Assembly: GCA_945881905.1 (NCBI GenBank)
Contig: CAMCVV010000025.1
Span: 1-32,239, forward strand
Direction: 5' to 3'
From: Paenibacillus alvei
Lineage (GTDB): Bacteria > Bacillota > Bacilli > Paenibacillales > NBRC-103111
DNA length: 32,239 bases
The first letter of the stretch is position 1. Every line of letters begins with the position of its first letter. A program made the position numbers and the translations under genes. Of this stretch, positions 19,035 to 32,239 are shown piece by piece. The notes below the pieces were generated by a model. It was not told the DNA's origin. It saw nothing but the letters and a program-made list of their open reading frames with translations, and ran no database searches.

Positions 19035-19448
19035 GTATCCTTTCTATGATTGACTAGCTGATTAGGCAAATGGTTGATTCATTATCATGAGTATTCGAGG
19101 TTTGCAAGCATTTACCTCTTATTGTACATGTGATTCTTGGAGATGTGAATGTCGGAAATGTGAATGTCGGAAATGTGAATGAGGTGCGGGTTTCTATCCT
19201 GTTGCCTCACCCACTGCAATGAGATCTAAGACATGTGCCAACACATCGAGTGGAATAAGACTTCGACGCAGAGGGTAGGTGAAATAATCTCTGTGGACAC
19301 ATGATCGAGTTACTGCGGTTTGCTACTTGCAACGAAGTGACATAGAGCGAAGTGTTCTGCCAAAAATATGGTGTATCCTTGCACCAAAATCGGATATGAT
19401 GAATTCATAGTTATGTAAACTAATATATGGACAAAGGAGGCCTACCTG
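19035..19448. other. Intergenic region between divergent genes
   Basis: No intact gene. It holds a three-copy 15-base tandem repeat (19141-19185). A minus-strand frame of about 40 codons (about 19199-19320, containing RDYFTYPLRRSLIPLDVLAH) looks protein-like but has no start and matches no family I recognise. The strong site AAAGGAGG (19433-19440) belongs to the lipid-kinase gene. Confidence 0.4.
19141..19185. repeat. 15-base tandem repeat, three copies
   Basis: The unit AAATGTGAATGTCGG occurs three times in a row: the first copy differs at one base, the third diverges at its last four bases. It is in non-coding DNA upstream of the HPr-kinase-like gene. Confidence 0.8.
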
Positions 19449-20930: not shown

Positions 20931-21644
20931 CTAAGGATGTAAAGTCACGTCTAGGGCCCATGTGCGGAAGACCTCTAGAAGTTGTGTCAAGTTGAGTGGA
21001 GCACATGATCCTTGAAACTTGAGGTCCTTCACGTAACATTGCAACCAATCCTGTTCACTATGATAGATCGACAACGCTTCGAATGAACATGCTTCTAGCT
21101 CTGTTTCTTCAATATTGATCTTCAACTTCCAACCTTTATTCCCATCAGTTGATATTTTGATTAAACCTACGTGTTCTTCCCAAGACCCATCACATTGAGA
21201 GCAAAACCACTCTTGAAGCCATTGAAGTAATAGGTGTCTATTTCTCGTATCATCTAAGTTCACGATTGACCCGGTTGACGTTACCCAGTTCTGATACGTT
21301 TGAAGGAGTTCAAACAACTTGAATGTGTCGCCTGCTGAATCAAATCTCCCATCAAATATTCTGCAAAAGTACCATTCATGTTCACTTAGGACTATATGAA
21401 TTTCTTTGAAAGGTATTGCTTCTAATGCAGTACCTTTCAGTTTAACTTCAAACCTCCACCCTGGATTAGCTTGAGTTTCAATCTTAATATCCACAATATT
21501 ACCGTCATGTTGAGATAATTGATCGGAATACCACTGTTGAAGCCAGTTCAAAGGATTCAGCCTTACCTCCAGTTGATTGGCGTACCACTGTTGAATGCGG
21601 TTCGGTTTCCAAAGTTGAAACTGGTGCTTATTCAGGAAATCCAT
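20931..21644 (-). CDS. Double Imm53-domain immunity protein, copy 3
   Basis: A 237-residue cytoplasmic protein, last of three tandem paralogues. It contains two consecutive Imm53-like domains: about 30-130 (NWLQQWYSDQL, ETQANPGWRFEVKLKGTALE, SEHEWYFCRI, FELLQTYQNWV) and about 140-235 (LQWLQEWFCSQCDGSW, STDGNKGWKLKINIEETELE, SEQDWLQCYV, APLNLTQLLEVFRTW). The first 28 residues hold a third, truncated motif (RIQQWYANQL). Imm53 proteins neutralise secreted polymorphic toxins and are recognised by these Trp-rich motifs. It differs from copies 1-2 mostly in the first domain and at the C-terminal end. Confidence 0.82.
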   Translation of the reverse strand: MDFLNKHQFQLWKPNRIQQWYANQLEVRLNPLNWLQQWYSDQLSQHDGNIVDIKIETQANPGWRFEVKLKGTALEAIPFKEIHIVLSEHEWYFCRIFDGRFDSAGDTFKLFELLQTYQNWVTSTGSIVNLDDTRNRHLLLQWLQEWFCSQCDGSWEEHVGLIKISTDGNKGWKLKINIEETELEACSFEALSIYHSEQDWLQCYVKDLKFQGSCAPLNLTQLLEVFRTWALDVTLHP

Positions 21645-21687
21645 GATTACCTCCTATAGTTAAACATATATCTTCAGGAAGAAATGA

Positions 21688-22404
21688 TCACACGGGATCT
21701 GAAGACACATATTCGACCCATGTGCGGAAGACCTCTAGAAGTTGTGTCAAGTTGAGTGGAGCACATGATCCTTGGAACTTGAGGTCCTTCACGTAACATT
21801 GTAACCAATCCTGTTCACTATGATAGATCGACAACGCTTCGAATGAACAAGCTTCTAGCTCTGTTTCTTCAATATTGATCTTCAACTTCCAACCTTGATT
21901 CCCATCGGTTGATATTTTGATATGACCTACGTGTTCTTCCCAAGACCCATCACATTGAGAGCAAAACCACTCTTGAAGCCATTGAAGTAATAGGTGTCTA
22001 TTCCTCGTGTCATCTACATTCACGATTGACCCGGTTGACGTTACCCAGTTCTGATAGGTTTGAAGAATTTCAAAAAACTTGAACGTGTCGCCTGATCCAC
22101 TAAATACCCCTTCAAGCACTCTGCAAAAGAACCATTCATGTTCACTGCGGTCTATATGAATTTCTTTGAAAGGTACTTCTTCTAAAGCAGTTTCTTTCAG
22201 TTTAATTGTTAACCACCACCCAGGATTAGCTTGAGTTTCAATATTAATATACACAATATTACCGTCATGTTGGCATAGTTGATCGGAGTACCACTGTTGA
22301 AGCCAGTTCAATGGATTCAGCCTTACCTCCAGTTGATTGGCGTACCACTGTTGAATGCGGTTCGGTTTCCATAGTTGAAACTGGTGCTTATTCAGGAAAT
22401 CCAT
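21688..22404 (-). CDS. Double Imm53-domain immunity protein, copy 2
   Basis: A 238-residue paralogue of its neighbours with the same two-domain plan. Domain 2 differs from copy 3 at only a few positions (for example HVGHIKISTDGNQGW), while domain 1 carries replacements such as YINIETQANPGWWLTIKLKE and CRVLEGVFSGSG. ATG 22404 follows TAGGAGGCAATC. The 43-base gap to copy 3 is nearly identical in sequence to the gap before this gene, showing that each duplication included the spacer. Confidence 0.82.
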   Translation of the reverse strand: MDFLNKHQFQLWKPNRIQQWYANQLEVRLNPLNWLQQWYSDQLCQHDGNIVYINIETQANPGWWLTIKLKETALEEVPFKEIHIDRSEHEWFFCRVLEGVFSGSGDTFKFFEILQTYQNWVTSTGSIVNVDDTRNRHLLLQWLQEWFCSQCDGSWEEHVGHIKISTDGNQGWKLKINIEETELEACSFEALSIYHSEQDWLQCYVKDLKFQGSCAPLNLTQLLEVFRTWVEYVSSDPV

Positions 22405-22447
22405 GATTGCCTCCTAAAGTTAAACATATATCTTCAGGAAGAAATGA

Positions 22448-23161
22448 TCACACGGGATCTGAAGACACATCTTCGACCCATGTGCGGAAGACCTCTAGAA
22501 GTTGTGTCAAGTTGAGTGGAGCACATGATCCTTGGAACTTGAGATCCTTCACGTAACATTGCAACCAATCCTGATCACTATGATGGATAGACAACGCTTC
22601 AAATGAACAAGTTTTTAATTCTGTTTCTTCAATATCGATCATCAGCGTCCAACCTTTATTCCCATCAGTTAATATCGTGATTCCATAAGCTTCTTCCCAA
22701 GACCCATCACATTGAGAGCAAAACCATTCCTGGAGCCACTGAAGTAATAGGTGTCTATTTCTCGTATCATCTACGTTCACGATTACCCCTGTTGACGTTA
22801 CCCAGTTCTGATAGGTTTGAAGAATTTCAAAAAACTTGAACGTATCGCCTGATCCAATAAATTCCCCTTCACGTACTCTGTAAAAGAACCATTCATGGTC
22901 ACTGCGGTCTATTTTAATTTCTTTGAAAGATACTGCTTCTAATGCAGTACCTTTCAGGTTAATTTCCATCCGCCACGCTGGATTAGCCTGAGTTTCAATA
23001 CTAATATCCACAGAATTACCGCCATGATGGCATAGTTGATCGGAGTACCACTGTTGAAGCCAGTTCAAAGGATTCAACCTTACCTCCAGTTGATTAGCGT
23101 ACCACTGTTGAATGCGGTTCGGTCTCCAAAGTTGAAACTGGTGCTTATTCAGGAAATCCAT
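22448..23161 (-). CDS. Double Imm53-domain immunity protein, copy 1 (toxin-adjacent)
   Basis: A 237-residue paralogue, first of the array and 15 bases after the toxin stop, with TAGGAGGC before ATG 23161, so it is cotranscribed with the toxin. It is the most divergent copy, with YGITILTDGNKGWTLMIDIE in domain 2 and SIETQANPAWRMEINLKG in domain 1. As the gene nearest the toxin, it is the likeliest cognate immunity. Its second domain (CDGSWEEAYGITI) is closest to the canonical Imm53 sequence. Confidence 0.84.
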   Translation of the reverse strand: MDFLNKHQFQLWRPNRIQQWYANQLEVRLNPLNWLQQWYSDQLCHHGGNSVDISIETQANPAWRMEINLKGTALEAVSFKEIKIDRSDHEWFFYRVREGEFIGSGDTFKFFEILQTYQNWVTSTGVIVNVDDTRNRHLLLQWLQEWFCSQCDGSWEEAYGITILTDGNKGWTLMIDIEETELKTCSFEALSIHHSDQDWLQCYVKDLKFQGSCAPLNLTQLLEVFRTWVEDVSSDPV

Positions 23162-23176
23162 GATTGCCTCCTAAAG

Positions 23177-24142
23177 TTATGGTTTTCGTGGCATTTCGTC
23201 GGGTCTTGGATGTCTAACGCCACCAGGAACAGTTCTATCATGCACATGAGGTACGCCAAATTTTTCGCCTGTTGCTTTATTTTCATGAGTCCTGTTATTT
23301 TCAGCTCTGCCATGATATGCATTACCGGGTGCAAAGGGATTTGGGTTTTGATTTGTAGGTTTGTTAAATGCCTGCCAATGAGTGACTTCTTGCGTAATCG
23401 GATCTCGCTTGATTACTGTATGATTACCAGTAGCAGTGGAGTCATACTTCATATTGTTTATCCCGCGTCCTGAATTAGCAACTTGCTTGGCACTCGTGGC
23501 GTTATCCGCTATTGCTTTAACACCTTTAGCGGCATAAGACCCAGGAACAAAAGGGATAGCGGTTGCTGCTGCATCCCATGCCATGAATAAACCATTGGTT
23601 AATGTGGGTTTCTTGTTGTACTCATATATACTATGTCCTAAGCTAGCAGCGTCAAAGACGGTTTCTAACGCTCGTTTGCTTCGTATTGAAGGGTTCTGTT
23701 CATCAGATGGTGTTGCATCTGCAAGATCTGTTAGAACTTCTTCCTCAGTTACACGTTCTTCCTCAGTTACAAGTTCTTCTTCAGTTACAAGATGATTCGT
23801 TACTTCAATTTCTGGAGCAGGAACAGAGGCTACCTCAGGATTAAGAATTTGAAACAAATTGATACAATCAAAAAGTTTCGATAAGTCGAGTAAGTCGTCT
23901 AGCTCTGCAGGCGATAAAGATGCAAGGTCTTCTAATTGCTGTTCGACTGATTGTTCTACTTGCTGTTCTACTTGTTGTGCTACTGATTGTTTGACTGATT
24001 GTTCGACTGATTGTTCTACTGGTTGTGCTACTTGCTGTGCTACTGGAGCTTGATCCGTCATCCCGAAGATGGCTTGAGTGGGGATCATCATCGTAGCGAG
24101 TAACATGGTCACGATGATTTTACTGAATAATTGGGTAAACAT
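23177..24142 (-). CDS. Secreted polymorphic toxin-like protein
   Basis: A 321-residue protein. Residues 1-30 form a Sec signal peptide (IIVTMLLATMMIPTQAIFG). Residues 33-72 are Gln/Val/Ser-rich short repeats, and residues 115-135 contain three VTEEE units. A hydrophobic Gly/Ala pre-toxin-like segment (FMAWDAAATAIPFVPGSYAA) leads to the C-terminal domain: GNHTVIKRDPITQEVTHW, NPFAPGNAYHGRAENN, PHVHDRTVPGGVRHPRPDEM. His-rich PHVHD with GGVR resembles toxins labelled polymorphic toxin type 24, a predicted nuclease; I hold that label loosely. GGAGG lies eight bases before ATG. Three Imm53 genes follow at once, supporting a toxin role. Unusually short for a contact-type toxin, with no LXG, RHS or WXG domain. 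Confidence 0.75.
   Translation of the reverse strand: MFTQLFSKIIVTMLLATMMIPTQAIFGMTDQAPVAQQVAQPVEQSVEQSVKQSVAQQVEQQVEQSVEQQLEDLASLSPAELDDLLDLSKLFDCINLFQILNPEVASVPAPEIEVTNHLVTEEELVTEEERVTEEEVLTDLADATPSDEQNPSIRSKRALETVFDAASLGHSIYEYNKKPTLTNGLFMAWDAAATAIPFVPGSYAAKGVKAIADNATSAKQVANSGRGINNMKYDSTATGNHTVIKRDPITQEVTHWQAFNKPTNQNPNPFAPGNAYHGRAENNRTHENKATGEKFGVPHVHDRTVPGGVRHPRPDEMPRKP
23735..23792 (-). repeat. 18-base tandem repeat coding (L/R)VTEEE units
   Basis: Three copies of an 18-base unit encode VTEEEL, VTEEER, VTEEEV in the toxin gene, in an acidic linker. The copies differ by single bases. Confidence 0.75.
23930..24052 (-). repeat. 12-base-period repeat coding Val-Glu-Gln-Ser units
   Basis: About nine degenerate four-residue units (VEQS, VKQS, VAQQ, VEQQ) follow the toxin signal peptide. 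The 12-base period is visible in the DNA, so copy number may vary between strains. Confidence 0.7.
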
Positions 24143-24771
24143 GATGAAACCTCCGTTGATTCTAGTTGTAAAATGGATATAATTACCATTTCCATCTTAT
24201 ATAATAACAAATGAAGGCCTAAATCACAAATGCAGGTATGTTCGTGTGTTATCAATGGATAACAGAAGCTTGTGCGTTATCCTCTGTCCAAGGCGTTATC
24301 TCGTCTGTAGCCGTAAGACGGGGAAGGGGATTTCTGGGAATGAAGATTCCTGATGATGAAGACCATCGTTGCATGACAATAAGAGCAGGAAAGATCCTGC
24401 CCACGTGTCCCATCTTAAAGATCTCCTGTTAGACGAAAGAAATCATACAATAATGATACGATTGATACCCCCCTAATTAATCTAGCTGTGACAGATCTCT
24501 AGAATGAGTAGAGTTAGCATAGAGGGCTCTAGCGGCGATGAGAAAGCATCAGAACGTTGGAGTACAGCAGTTACGTTCTCCATTGTTGTTGATGCGGACT
24601 TGCTGACGAAGGTGATGATATAGCTTCAGAATCTACGTTCTACCGAGATCAGTCAGGCATTAATCCGACATAGACGAACTGCTTAACGCATACATGGGCG
24701 AGAGATCTGCGACAACTTGTATAACAATCGCCGTTGTAGAACTATGCCAAGCAATATTCACTTCAATGCAA
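24143..24771. other. Intergenic region between the restriction operon and the toxin operon
   Basis: No intact gene. It has a perfect hairpin GCAGGA-AAGA-TCCTGC (24385-24400) without a U-tract. Near 24545-24690 the plus strand reads, across a frame break, VVDADLLTKVDDIA and STEISQALIRHRR, faintly like a ribbon-helix-helix antitoxin; this is not strong enough for a gene call. The minus strand just upstream of 24142 is AT-rich and presumably carries the toxin promoter. Confidence 0.4.
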
Positions 24772-27700
24772 TCAAACTTTACCACCCACGCCTCTAAACT
24801 TCTCAACAATCGCAGCAATTTTTTGGAAAACACTCTGTTTTTTAGTTAAGTATTCAGGATTGATAACGCTCATTTTAGGCAGAATCCCGTTAAGTTCCGT
24901 ACCATTTTCACTAGCATACTCTCTTTTTAATGAAATCAATATATACCTTTTTGCTGCTACTTCATTAAGTTTTTCCGTATTAATCAACTCTTCTACTTCA
25001 CGTTTTTGCTCAATTTGGGCAAATGAAAAGAATGCATCAATAATACTTGCTTTATCTTGAATCTTGTCTAAGTCTGTTTGGTTGATGAAGTCGACTACTA
25101 AGCTTTCTTTTGCTCGGTTCCCTACACTAGAACGAATTAAACGACGCACCTCATCAACCAATAAACTTTTATCTTTTACATTTTTGTTTTTTTCAAATAT
25201 CAATTCAAGAATGTAATCTAGATTGATTTCTTGTGATTTGAGAAGCTCTACCTCAAAGACAATATCATCCCAATCCATAGAGGGATTGTCTTTTTCTTGC
25301 CCAGTATTTTCACGACGAAGCCATTCGCGAATATCATTATATGAAGAACGATAATCCTGAATGGTTCTTTCTTCTGGTACTCGAATTTCTTGCATCGCTG
25401 CTATATCTTCATCTGTCACATAATAAGTTGTTTTGAAATTTTCCTTTGCTTCAGGATCAGTCATATCTACCGATTGTAAAGCTTTTAAACCTGAGAATTC
25501 ATCATAGTTCTGCAAGATGTGTTCAATACGCAGATATTCACCAAAGAGTTTAACAAAATCTTTTTTATCCTTTTCAGTATCGATCTCATCCATATGAGGA
25601 AACCGTTCCGTTAACTCTTTTACGACCTCTACGTATCCACGACGAGCTTCACCGGTTGCCACTTCAGTGAATCCTTCCATATATGCATTATAGCTTTTTT
25701 CTAGCACCACATTTTTAGTGTTCTTATCTCCAAATAGCGTAATGGCGTCTATGGTTGCTTGTTCCAAATTTCTGAATGTCACAATATTGCCAAAGGTTTT
25801 CGTCGAATCATAAATACGATTTGTTCGAGAAAAAGCTTGAATTAAACCATGAAACCTCAGATGTTTATCAACAAATAATGTATTTAAGGTAGGCGCATCA
25901 AAACCCGTTAGAAACATACCTACAACAATCAACAAATCAATTTCTTTGTTTTTGACTCGTTCCGCGAGGTTGCCATAATAATTTTGGAATTCTTTGCTCT
26001 CTACACCATAATTGGCTTTAAACATAGCATTATAGTCTTGAATCGCCATAGTCAAGAACTCCTTGGCACTGCTATCCATTGCTGAGGGTTCAAACGTTTC
26101 ATCTTGAATTTCACCTATCGCATGTTGCTCTTCATTAGCAGCATAGGAGAATATGGTAGCAATCTTAAGGGGTCGATTACTTTCCTTTTGTAAATGATTT
26201 AATGATTCGTAGTAGAGCTTGGCTGCGTCAACACTACTCACAGCAAACATGGCATTAAATCCTTTTCCATTCGCAAGTAGGCGATGTGTTTTTGCTCTAT
26301 ACTGATTAAGAATGTATTGAGAAATCTCTTTGATCCGTTCAGGATGAAGTAAAGCTTCTTTAATTTCTGCTGCAGATAGCTTCTTCTCGTCCTGTTCTGC
26401 TTCAACCGATTTGAACTTGGGACGCACATCGATATAATCCACTTTGAACTTTAACACTTTCTCATCTCGAATGGCATCGGTAATGACATATGAATGCAGC
26501 TCTCGACCAAAGACAGTCGCAGTGGTGTCCGAACCTAACGCATTTTCTGTAAAAATAGGCGTACCTGTAAATCCAAATGGATAGAACTTCTTAAACTTTT
26601 TCTTGATATTTTTTTGAGCTTCTCCAAATTGTGAACGGTGCGCTTCATCAAAAATAAATACGACTTGCTTATGATAAATAGCTAGATCTGTTTCGCTTTT
26701 CATGAGGTTGTTCAGCTTTTGAATCGTCGTCACAATAATTTTATTATCATTTTTTTCAATGTTATGCTTCAATCCTGCAGTATTCTCTGAACCATTCACA
26801 CTATCAGGAGAGAATCGCTGATATTCTTTCATCGTCTGATGATCTAGATCTTTCCGATCTACAACAAAGAATACTTTATCGATAAAATCCAGTTCCGTAG
26901 CCAAGCGAGCTGCTTTAAAGCTCGTCAGGGTTTTCCCTGAACCCGTGGTATGCCAAATATATCCGCCACTTTCAAGGGTACTCCATTGTTTTGCTTGGTA
27001 GGTACTCTTGATTTTCCATAATATTCTTTCTGTAGCGGCAATTTGATATGGACGCATAACCAGCAGATGATCGCTCACATCAAACACGGAATATTTCAGG
27101 AGTACATTCAATAACGTATCTTTCTGAAAAAATGTAGCAGTGAAATCTTTTAGATCTTTAATCAGGATATTATCCGCTTTGGCCCAGTTCATCGTAAAAT
27201 CATAACTGTTCTTATCCCGTTTTGTCGTATTCGCAAAATAACGGCTATCGGTACCATTAGAGATCACGAATATCTGTAGATACTTATATAGAGAGTTTTC
27301 CGAATTGAAGCTTTCTTTACTGTACCTGTGAACCTGATTGAAGGCTTCTCGAATCGCAATCCCACGCTTTTTGAGCTCCACTTGTAAGAGTGGTAAGCCA
27401 TTGACTAAGATCGTAACATCATATCGATTAGATTGCGTTCCTTGTTGTTCGAATTGGGATATGACCTGCACTTTATTACTCACCATATTCTTTTTGTCTA
27501 CGAGGTAAATGTTCTGAATACGTCCATCATCAAAAACAAAATCATAAACATAATTGTCGTGAATTTTACGGGTTTTATCGATGTAATTATCACTTGGTTT
27601 ATCCAAAAACTCCTGACAGAATCTCATCCATTCCGCATCTGAGAATTGCACATGATTAAGTAATTGCAGCTGCACACGAACATTAGCAAGCAACTGTTCA

Positions 27701-27870
27701 GGAGTGGTTATACGGGGTAGATGTTCATAGCCTTGATTGATTAGATCTTGAATGAGTTCGCGTTCTAAATTAGCTTCTGTCTGATAGCCAACCCCTTGTT
27801 CTACGATCTTGGTATATTTATCTAGAACGATAAAGTTATTTGATTCTGCGATGGGTTTATACTCGATCAT
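24772..27870 (-). CDS. hsdR: Type I restriction enzyme R (HsdR) subunit
   Basis: A 1,032-residue motor-nuclease subunit that translocates and cuts unmodified DNA in complex with M2S. The N-terminal PD-(D/E)xK nuclease is visible in [21 protein letters not shown] (about 150-170). The superfamily 2 helicase has Walker A TTGSGKT (about 310), [21 protein letters not shown], and motifs V-VI near [13 protein letters not shown] and QAFSRTNR. The C-terminal helical part (about 800-1032) contacts the methylase. Length and sequence style match the type IC (EcoR124-like) group. Its ATG overlaps the hsdS stop by four bases. Intact as far as can be seen. Confidence 0.95.
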
Positions 27871-29078
27871 TCATTTCCCTCCTCTTTGGGAAAGCTAAGG
27901 AGCTTGTTACGGTAGTATTCGTATTGTTTTTGACGCAACTTGATTTCACGAGGTAACCCCTCGGTGATTGAAGTGGTCCAGGCATCGAATTTATCTAAGA
28001 TAGAGACGATGCGGGCTTGTTCTTGAAGGGGGGGGATGGGGATTTTATATGCTTTTATAATTCCAGCATTCAAGTCTCCTCTTGCACCTTGCCCAAGGTT
28101 TTTTATATATTCGTACTGACTGCTAACCCAATGAAACACATATCTATAATTGGCTTTATTTGCGTTAATTTCTAAACATAGACAGTGTTGATTTGTTGTA
28201 AGTTGAATTTTATTTATTGCAGATCGACCTGCAGTAGCACCAGAAATTGCTATGATCACGCAGTTTTCTGGAACCCATTTCACTGCAGTTTTTTTTAATG
28301 CGCTTTCTGTTATTTTTATCTCTGTTTCATATATATCTACAAAACGCACTTCTTGTGTTCTTAACCAAGGAATACTCCCGTTATTGTAATAACCCGCACT
28401 ATTTGCAAGTGGTGTTGCGCCTGAATATGATTTAATTATTATGTCACTCAGCGAACCCATCGGCACTCCCTCGTCAAAAGTCAACAACTGATCGCGGTAA
28501 TAAGTGTATTGCTTTTTACGAGCTGTAAGCTCTGCTGTAAGCTCTGCTGTAAGCTCTGTGAAGGTGTCCAAGATACGGACGATTTCGTTTTGGATGTGAA
28601 GGGGGGGGATGGGGATTATGAATGTTCGTAGAGCTTTCAATCCCAAGTTTTTGATTGTTGAACCTGTTTTTTGAATTTCAAAATATTTTTTAGAAAAATC
28701 TGTTTGTAAGAAATAAAAAAGGTATTTTGAATAGAGTTCGGATGATTTAATATTAAAAAAGGCAACAGATTTCCCAAGTACAATTTTTTCATTATTAAAT
28801 AATGAAACGCTCCCAATGGTGCCGTTGATAGACAAAAAAACAGTGTCTTTAACTGTAAAAACAATCCCATATTTTTTAAACATCGAATCATCCACTTTTT
28901 TTGTTTTGTCATTATAAACAATTACTCCATTATCTAGATTATTTCCATTTATGAACACATATCCCCCATTATCATCATATATTGGAGTTCCATGTAAACC
29001 GTCTCCAATTACACACAAATCACGCAACGTCTTCCACTCCACCTCAACCCCATCCAGCAATTTCTCCATAATGTCCAT
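27867..29078 (-). CDS. hsdS: Type I restriction specificity (HsdS) subunit
   Basis: A 403-residue DNA-recognition subunit with two target-recognition domains, each followed by a conserved helical spacer. TRD1 is about 15-150, then [17 protein letters not shown] and the central spacer with ELTA repeats and [16 protein letters not shown] (about 165-200). TRD2 is about 205-335, then [17 protein letters not shown] and [15 protein letters not shown]. The two spacers are the type IC pattern. TRD sequences are not known to me, so the target cannot be predicted. ATG 29078 lies three bases after the fic stop; an in-frame ATG at 29069 is an alternative. Confidence 0.94.
28522..28557 (-). repeat. 12-base tandem repeat (x3) in hsdS coding ELTA
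   Basis: Three perfect consecutive copies of GCTGTAAGCTCT (plus strand) encode [12 protein letters not shown] in the central spacer of HsdS. In EcoR124I versus EcoR124II, two or three copies of the equivalent TAEL unit set the spacing of the recognition site by one base. Confidence 0.9.
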
Positions 29079-29080
29079 AG

Positions 29081-29682
29081 TTAAACCTCATCCGTCTTGA
29101 ATTCACTATATCCCTCATAGTAATAACTGACATCTATCCCTTTCATAAATAAATCACGGTTATCAATGTCAGGGGTAAGGGCTTGTTTCAGGAAATATTT
29201 AATCTCTACATCTTGAACAACACTTCGTCGCATAGCGGATAGATACTCCTCTTTGTCTACAAGATTCCAATCGATCACCTGTGTAATCTCTTGTTTGAGT
29301 ATAAGGTCAAGCCATATCCGAGTAGCTCGTCCATTCCCTTCACGAACAGGGTGAGCAATGTTCATCTCCACATATTTCTCAATGATTTGATCAAAGGTCG
29401 TTTGAGGCATTTGATCAATATGCGTGAGTGAAGCCTCCAGATACATCACAGGAGCAAAGCGGAAATCTCCTTTGGACATATGGACCGTTCTCATCTTTCC
29501 GGCAAAGTCATATATATCTTCAAATAAATAATTGTGAATGTAGGCCAGTCCCTTATAAGTTCCTACTTGTACCTTGGCAATATCTCCAGAGTCAAACAGC
29601 TGTTTGGCTTTTTGTTTGCTTATTTTCTCTTCTGCTTTTGAGAGTTCGATCTGATTGGTAATATTCAATTTATTATCGATCA

Positions 29683-29686
<4 letters not shown>
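29081..29686 (-). CDS. Fic-domain protein with C-terminal inhibitory motif (class III-like)
   Basis: A 201-residue protein whose Fic active loop is [12 protein letters not shown] (His112-Arg123). This is the catalytic core for AMP transfer (HxFx(D/E)GNGRxxR), with Val in place of the usual Phe at position three. Upstream are [20 protein letters not shown] and FAPV, the beta-flap and helix region. At the C-terminus S187-YYY-E191-G192 fits the (S/T)xxxE(G/N) inhibitory motif, placed C-terminally as in class III Fic proteins, so activity is probably self-restrained. It is encoded inside the restriction operon, overlapping hsdM by four bases and three bases before hsdS. Whether it modifies the restriction enzyme, the host or something else is unknown. 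Confidence 0.92.
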
Positions 29687-31230
<1,544 letters not shown>

Positions 31231-31546
31231 TGGTATACCTCCAATTATGAGTATGAGCACTCTCGGAAACTCCAAAACTCCGAGATTGATCTGTTTTTTA
31301 TTCTACTATTTCAACCAAATATACTTGAACATGAAGTGAAACTTACCGCGAGGTCCTTACCTACATACTGTTCCTAGACCTGCTATTGGGTTTAGAATAT
31401 GTCCTTCTCCGCACGGATGTTCTTCTACACGTAAATGATTGGGATTCTCAATATATCCAACATTATCCTGAAGCTCTGTTACATGATGATCAGGTATAAA
31501 GACCTGAGATTTTTATTGATATGCATACGTAGACAGCTGTTCATTG
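31231..31546. other. Region upstream of hsdM without a gene
   Basis: No gene is visible; the hsdM promoter should be here. I find no strong -35/-10 pair. Confidence 0.3.
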
Positions 31547-31690
31547 TTATAACAGCTTTAACAGTGCTTCTTTCTTTTCCGAGTTAAGTGTAGATTGTGA
31601 TACGCCAGAATCTTTTGCTAGCTTATATATGGATCAATTTCGTTCATCTAGTAATTGTTTGATTCTGCTTAAACTATCCACAATGCACAT
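31547..31690 (-). pseudogene. XRE-type helix-turn-helix regulator, decayed
   Basis: Minus-strand ATG 31690 begins MCIVDSLSRIKQLLDERN, then TGA where Trp (TGG) is usual, then SIYKLAKDSGVSQSTLNS and an unrelated short tail. The SIYKLAKDSGVSQSTL helix-turn-helix is typical of XRE repressors. The stop and the truncated C-terminus show inactivation. Confidence 0.65.
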
Positions 31691-32207
31691 GCCTTATATC
31701 ACAAATGATATAACTACCATAATACAACATTAATGTAATATATTAAAGTATTTGTAATATATGGAAGTTATTAATTGAATTCTATTCAAATAAGTAGTCA
31801 TCCATAGCGGTCTAACTTTTATATGTCATATATATCTATCAATTTCCAGAACGTATATCATACTTCGATTTCAATATCTAATTCCTAATAGTGTGTAGTT
31901 ATGGGTGCGTCATCCTGACACCCCTCGTCTAAAAATTGTTAATACGTGTTTATTGGGTATTGTCATTCTACGTCGAATAAGGGAATGAATCGTTCTTCAT
32001 TATTGAATATGACTTTGACTATTGATCTTGAGAGATATTGAGTAAAGATTAGGGTTGGTATCTTGGTCGTTAATGGCTTGTTCATCTCACGAAGGTATAA
32101 ACTTTCTAGGATTGGGTGTAATTGCTATTCGATGTGCTTCATTTCGTCACAGGAAAGCTCATCACTTTTTTTAATCGAGAAGTGAATTATTCAGTGGTGA
32201 AAGGAGG
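31691..32207. other. AT-rich non-coding stretch
   Basis: No gene. A small hairpin, GGGTG-N11-CACCC, lies near 31902-31922. Confidence 0.3.
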
Positions 32208-32239
32208 GTGTTCCTGAAAACAAAAAAACGCAGGAAATT
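32208..32239 (+). CDS. Possible 5' end of a further gene (cut by window edge)
   Basis: AAAGGAGG (32200-32207) is followed by GTG 32208 at no spacing and CTG 32214 at six bases, then Lys/Arg-rich codons (KTKKRRK) to the edge. Spacing favours the CTG. Too little is visible to identify the gene. Confidence 0.25.
   Translation, partial: MFLKTKKRRK

Follow-up and report, generated by a model that had tools for sequence, protein, structure and literature searches.

Does a short perfect repeat in a type I specificity gene act as a switch of restriction specificity, or does it set the length of a molecular spacer on a slower time scale? The question is raised by three 12-bp units in the hsdS gene of a stretch of 32,239 nucleotides, hereafter the window. 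An earlier note on this DNA proposed that the operon may switch specificity through slippage or unequal crossover at these units. The mechanism of EcoR124 is textbook knowledge; what we add here is population evidence on the spacer repeat.

The operon and its surroundings

A complete type IC operon, in the order hsdM–fic–hsdS–hsdR, lies on the minus strand at the right end of the window:

29683..31230, minus strand, hsdM (79% identity to an E. coli plasmid HsdM; TIGR00497, 636 bits)
29081..29686, minus strand, Fic protein adenylyltransferase of NmFic type, between hsdM and hsdS (NF046029, 302 bits, cut-off 230)
27867..29078, minus strand, hsdS, 403 aa, two target-recognition domains (Methylase_S, Specificity_I and 7bst_A fold match)
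24772..27870, minus strand, hsdR, 1032 aa, in overlap with the stop of hsdS (E. coli plasmid HsdR, 75% identity; EcoR124I HsdR, 1703 bits)

The hsdM reading frame is listed to 31275 from a TTG, and the ATG at 31230 fits the start of the homologue. The E. coli plasmid system to which HsdM and HsdR are 79% and 75% identical is of EcoR124 type. EcoR124I chains match the two subunits at 905 and 1703 bits, and the identities fall within the range of about 70% or more that marks the type IC family. HsdS shows two Pfam Methylase_S stretches (E 4e-52) and a PADLOC Specificity_I match of 428 bits. For all three subunits, the closest solved structures are EcoR124I chains; the 7bst chain is named EcoR124II by its depositors, while the entry title reads EcoR124I and the sequence has two TAEL units. 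The Fic motif of the window reads HPVREGNGR, compared with HPFREGNGR in relatives, and four related loci (L030, L031, L074 and L081) hold a Fic motif at an equal distance before hsdS.

The G+C content of the operon is 37-40%, against 43% in the genes further left. Together with the similarity across phyla, this low value suggests that the operon was acquired by horizontal transfer. A close relative of the window hsdS allele was sought in plasmids and not found: the best DNA matches are from Enterococcus plasmids, which are ~79% identical across hsdR and a portion of hsdS and carry a different hsdS allele whose linker is one unit longer. Among 60 relatives, no HsdS comes closer than 40% identity. 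Inversion or shuffling, as known from other phase-variable hsdS genes, was considered and rejected, as the genome yields no hsdS copy beyond the single match and no long inverted repeats occur within 24500-32239.

Other repetitive features are present to the left of the operon. Three tandem near-identical genes occupy 20931-23161, and the one that was scanned matches Imm53. Their neighbour, a predicted secreted protein (23177-24142), holds low-complexity repeats whose period is 12/24 at 23930-24046 and 18 at 23730-23791. A 15-bp tandem repeat of 3.6 copies (19128-19181) is located between HPr kinase-like and diacylglycerol kinase-like genes, both named by eye.

The repeat array and the architecture of HsdS

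The array and the domains around it are placed as follows:

28522..28558, minus strand, three perfect 12-bp units (37 nt, period 12; TRF and period-12 run)
28608..29039, minus strand, N-terminal target recognition domain, roughly residues 14-157 (placed by model and alignment)
28485..28601, minus strand, first spacer helix (CR1), residues 160-198, holding the repeat (AlphaFold2)
28035..28460, minus strand, C-terminal target recognition domain, about residues 207-348 (model)
27900..28028, minus strand, second spacer region (CR2), helices 351-369 and 374-393, repeat-free (model; 18-aa linker in 86/86 CR2 sequences)

The repeat is observed directly. Tandem Repeats Finder (TRF) reports 3.1 copies of period 12 with 100% match at 28522-28558, and the longest period-12 identity run of hsdS is exactly this perfect stretch of 37 nt, which bears out the three perfect 12-base copies of the earlier note. 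The coding strand reads GAG CTT ACA GCA / GAG CTT ACA GCA / GAG CTT ACA GCT, encoding ELTA three times (12 residues, 175-186 of HsdS). Since the third alanine codon is GCT instead of GCA, the register of the perfect 37-nt array begins immediately ahead of the first GAG. With the protein sequence and the codon usage of the window taken as given, the chance that three ELTA units agree at every codon is ~1e-4, and synonymous shuffling of the whole gene produced a run of this length in 3 of 5000 trials. Both figures argue that the window repeat is a duplication at the DNA level; codon habit is ruled out as its origin by these statistics and by the codon identity seen in relatives (see below).

The AlphaFold2 model of HsdS (mean pLDDT 90.9) predicts residues 160-198 as one continuous helix containing the ELTA units. 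Its fold, with two target recognition domains and two spacer helices, matches the EcoR124I S subunit 7bst_A at a TM score of 0.74. The repeat is thus located in the predicted first spacer helix of a type IC HsdS, and its assignment to the central spacer, already made in the earlier note, was correct. The C-terminal target domain has a close counterpart in an E. coli plasmid allele (L105). The ends of both target domains are joined by a direct repeat of 65 nt with 72% identity (27987-28051 and 28560-28624). The two copies are spaced by 573 bp, a multiple of three, and recombination between them would leave an in-frame HsdS with one domain. A half-length HsdS exists in nature: an E. coli plasmid hsdS (L113:739-1353) encodes 205 aa and lies beside hsdM and hsdR; of the two target domains its product has the N-terminal one alone, together with a fused spacer end.

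Spacer length and the predicted recognition gap

Relatives were collected as 80 loci, one genome per species, supplemented by a phylum search. Cleanly parsed CR1 linkers from many phyla have 6 (1 sequence), 10 (2), 14 (49) or 18 (25) residues; L036, with 14 residues, is counted with CR1, though the script had filed it under CR2. These lengths always differ by whole repeat units, a stepwise pattern that is read directly from the sequences. The CR2 linker has 18 residues in all 86 sequences. Homogenisation at the DNA level is likewise directly visible: of 64 pairs of adjacent units that encode the same residues, 60 are identical in DNA, and the codon identity of adjacent units is 0.97, compared with 0.37 expected from the codon usage of each locus. 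Unit spellings differ from gene to gene. Based on the identity of adjacent units, we conclude that repeat units keep being re-copied, by recurrent duplication and loss.

How many units does the window gene have in the terms of EcoR124? In type IC enzymes the gap of the target is 6 bp with two TAEL units and 7 bp with three, an effect established experimentally in EcoR124I/II and in EcoDXXI hybrids (PMC3874165); the one-base shift stated in the earlier note is therefore confirmed by the literature. The window linker equals that of EcoR124I (two TAEL, N6) in length and aligns to it without gaps, so the window gene has two TAEL by EcoR124 counting. Three ELTA units remain the right count on the DNA, but the equivalence to the three-TAEL EcoR124II falls, and by this alignment the 'three' of the earlier note is the same helix counted in another register. 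As a member of the EcoR124I length class, the window enzyme is predicted to recognize a target with a 6-bp gap, and one more unit would give 7.

Natural copy-number variants in E. coli

Copy-number variants are directly observed in E. coli. In complete genomes, one allele carries 2, 3, 4 or 5 copies on otherwise identical upstream sequence. Ten of its 11 intact genes have 3 units and are identical over 1239 bp; the remaining intact gene has 2 units and corresponds, letter for letter, to the 3-copy gene minus 12 bp. Strains PAR (3 units) and PG20180057 (2 units) are such a pair, and their predicted gaps would be 7 and 6 bp. Six hsdS genes of this allele are disrupted by ISEc45 and hold 4, 5, 2, 4, 2 and 5 units. 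Four disrupted copies (L109, L115, L117 and L118) and the intact 3-copy L116 show zero differences in the 1236 nt upstream of the array.

In a second allele the intact gene holds 2 units, and a copy cut at its 5′ end by IS1 holds 8. One base differs between the two downstream of the array and none over 508 bases upstream. The 8-unit copy belongs to strain 33-6 (L114:1537-1632), and its perfect 12-bp units form the largest array seen. Among the records of a plasmid-borne allele, 21 show 3 units by span, and a further one, with a stop codon in the gene, shows 2. For a third chromosomal allele the count is 2 units throughout (15 of 15), and all six assemblies of the NC101 lineage have 5 copies by BLAST span.

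Overall, 46 of the 47 intact genes keep the number of their group (10/11, 15/15 and 21/21 in three allele groups), most of these copies being counted from BLAST spans and not base by base. A Fisher test of intact against disrupted genes, computed without the disrupted strain H233, the insertion of which was left unread, gives 11/19448, about 6e-4, uncorrected for descent. Shared ancestry makes the counts non-independent, and ISEc45 may have inserted only once. That working genes keep their unit number while broken ones drift points to selection on length. Read in this manner, the E. coli pattern fits slow, selected length change better than a phase switch.

Tuning element or switch

We consider it probable that the array is the spacer-length element of a type IC specificity subunit, mutable, and serving slow tuning more than routine switching. 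With each 12-bp unit, the helix between the two DNA-reading domains would lengthen by four residues, or roughly one turn. A unit added or removed by slippage or unequal crossover would shift the domains by about one bp of DNA and alter the gap of the bipartite target. The array would mutate readily, with copy number mostly held constant while the gene works. For the window itself, the gap of the enzyme is a prediction, and any switching in the species would be hypothetical.

A rapid phase-variable switch, with frequent gain and loss of units and several specificities within a clonal population, would also fit the perfect repeat and the range of 2 to 8 copies in E. coli. Neisseria gonorrhoeae strains with 0-3 LEAT units and different motifs (PMC6789123) point in the same direction. 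Nevertheless, we regard such a switch as unlikely. Intact E. coli alleles are nearly constant, as is the NC101 lineage, and three 12-bp units make a short array. Moreover, a new specificity in an active system would presumably expose unmethylated self DNA. Of the switching claim in the earlier note, natural change of copy number in related arrays stands, whereas the near-constancy of intact E. coli alleles, with most variants found in disrupted genes, argues against routine switching. At the other extreme, the units could be kept purely for protein reasons, their DNA identity having no dynamic meaning. E183, L184 and R187 of the spacer helix are indeed invariant in 55 aligned HsdS sequences, but neighbouring units share far more codons than expected, spellings differ between genes and natural copy-number variants exist. 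This structural reading is already disfavoured and is the least probable of all.

A further reading arises from two homopolymer tracts, each located before a spacer helix:

28601..28608, minus strand, C8 tract in the first IPIPPL motif, codon 157 (sequence)
28028..28035, minus strand, C8 tract in the second IPIPPL motif, codon 348 (sequence)

In this case hsdS would be a two-tier contingency gene: the 12-bp units set the gap, and frameshifts at the C8 pair turn the enzyme off or yield truncated forms. The window hsdS holds two of the six C8/G8 tracts of the 2.4 Mb genome, at homologous places. No run of at least seven C occurs in the IPIPPL motifs of the 80 relatives, CCC is used least among the proline codons of the window, and a poly-G tract acts likewise in the hsdS of NgoAV (PMC6789123). 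A slip at either tract, however, gives products of 186-199 residues with the helix out of frame or of 360-362 residues, neither with the correct following helix, in contrast to the functional half subunit of NgoAV. Eight bases are also near the lower limit for fast slippage, and gene conversion between the halves of hsdS would explain both copies. We therefore hold a two-tier device to be very improbable; the C8 pair may reflect gene conversion between the gene halves, which share the 65-nt direct repeat, or a frameshift switch. If the device were real, the tracts would allow a passage with restriction off during a change of specificity and so avoid self-cutting.

The population evidence added here consists of helix changes by whole repeats only, across many phyla, with units kept identical in DNA. 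Copy number in E. coli appears free in broken genes and nearly fixed in working ones. It thereby becomes testable whether changes of the repeat serve as an adaptive switch or arise as mutations that selection removes, one conceivable reason being the exposure of self DNA by a new gap.

Comparison with known systems

EcoR124I and EcoR124II (type IC, plasmid R124) have the operon core and the central-helix repeat in common with the window system. HsdR and HsdM are closely related, and the linker of EcoR124I has the length of that in the window HsdS. The N-terminal target domain is different, and the window operon has an internal Fic gene, unlike EcoR124I/II. The repeat is spelled GAGCTTACAGCA in the window and CTTACCGCTGAG in the EcoR124 type, the latter read in E. 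coli relatives. The host of the window system also differs from that of EcoR124, being apparently a member of the Bacillota as judged from gene content.

EcoDXXI and EcoPrrI (type IC, three TAEL) share the kind and the position of the repeat (PMC3874165) and are one unit longer than the window gene. NgoAV of Neisseria gonorrhoeae combines central tetrapeptide repeats in HsdS with a homopolymer tract in the gene, as the window does, and its change of gap with repeat number has been linked to methylomes (PMC6789123). Its units are LEAT, and its poly-G tract leads to a functional truncated HsdS, whereas the C8 tracts of the window precede each spacer helix. The tandem tetrapeptide repeat in the first spacer helix by which type IC is recognized is present here as three ELTA units, residues 175-186 within 160-198. 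The window system is thus a further member of the type IC (EcoR124 family) spacer-repeat kind.
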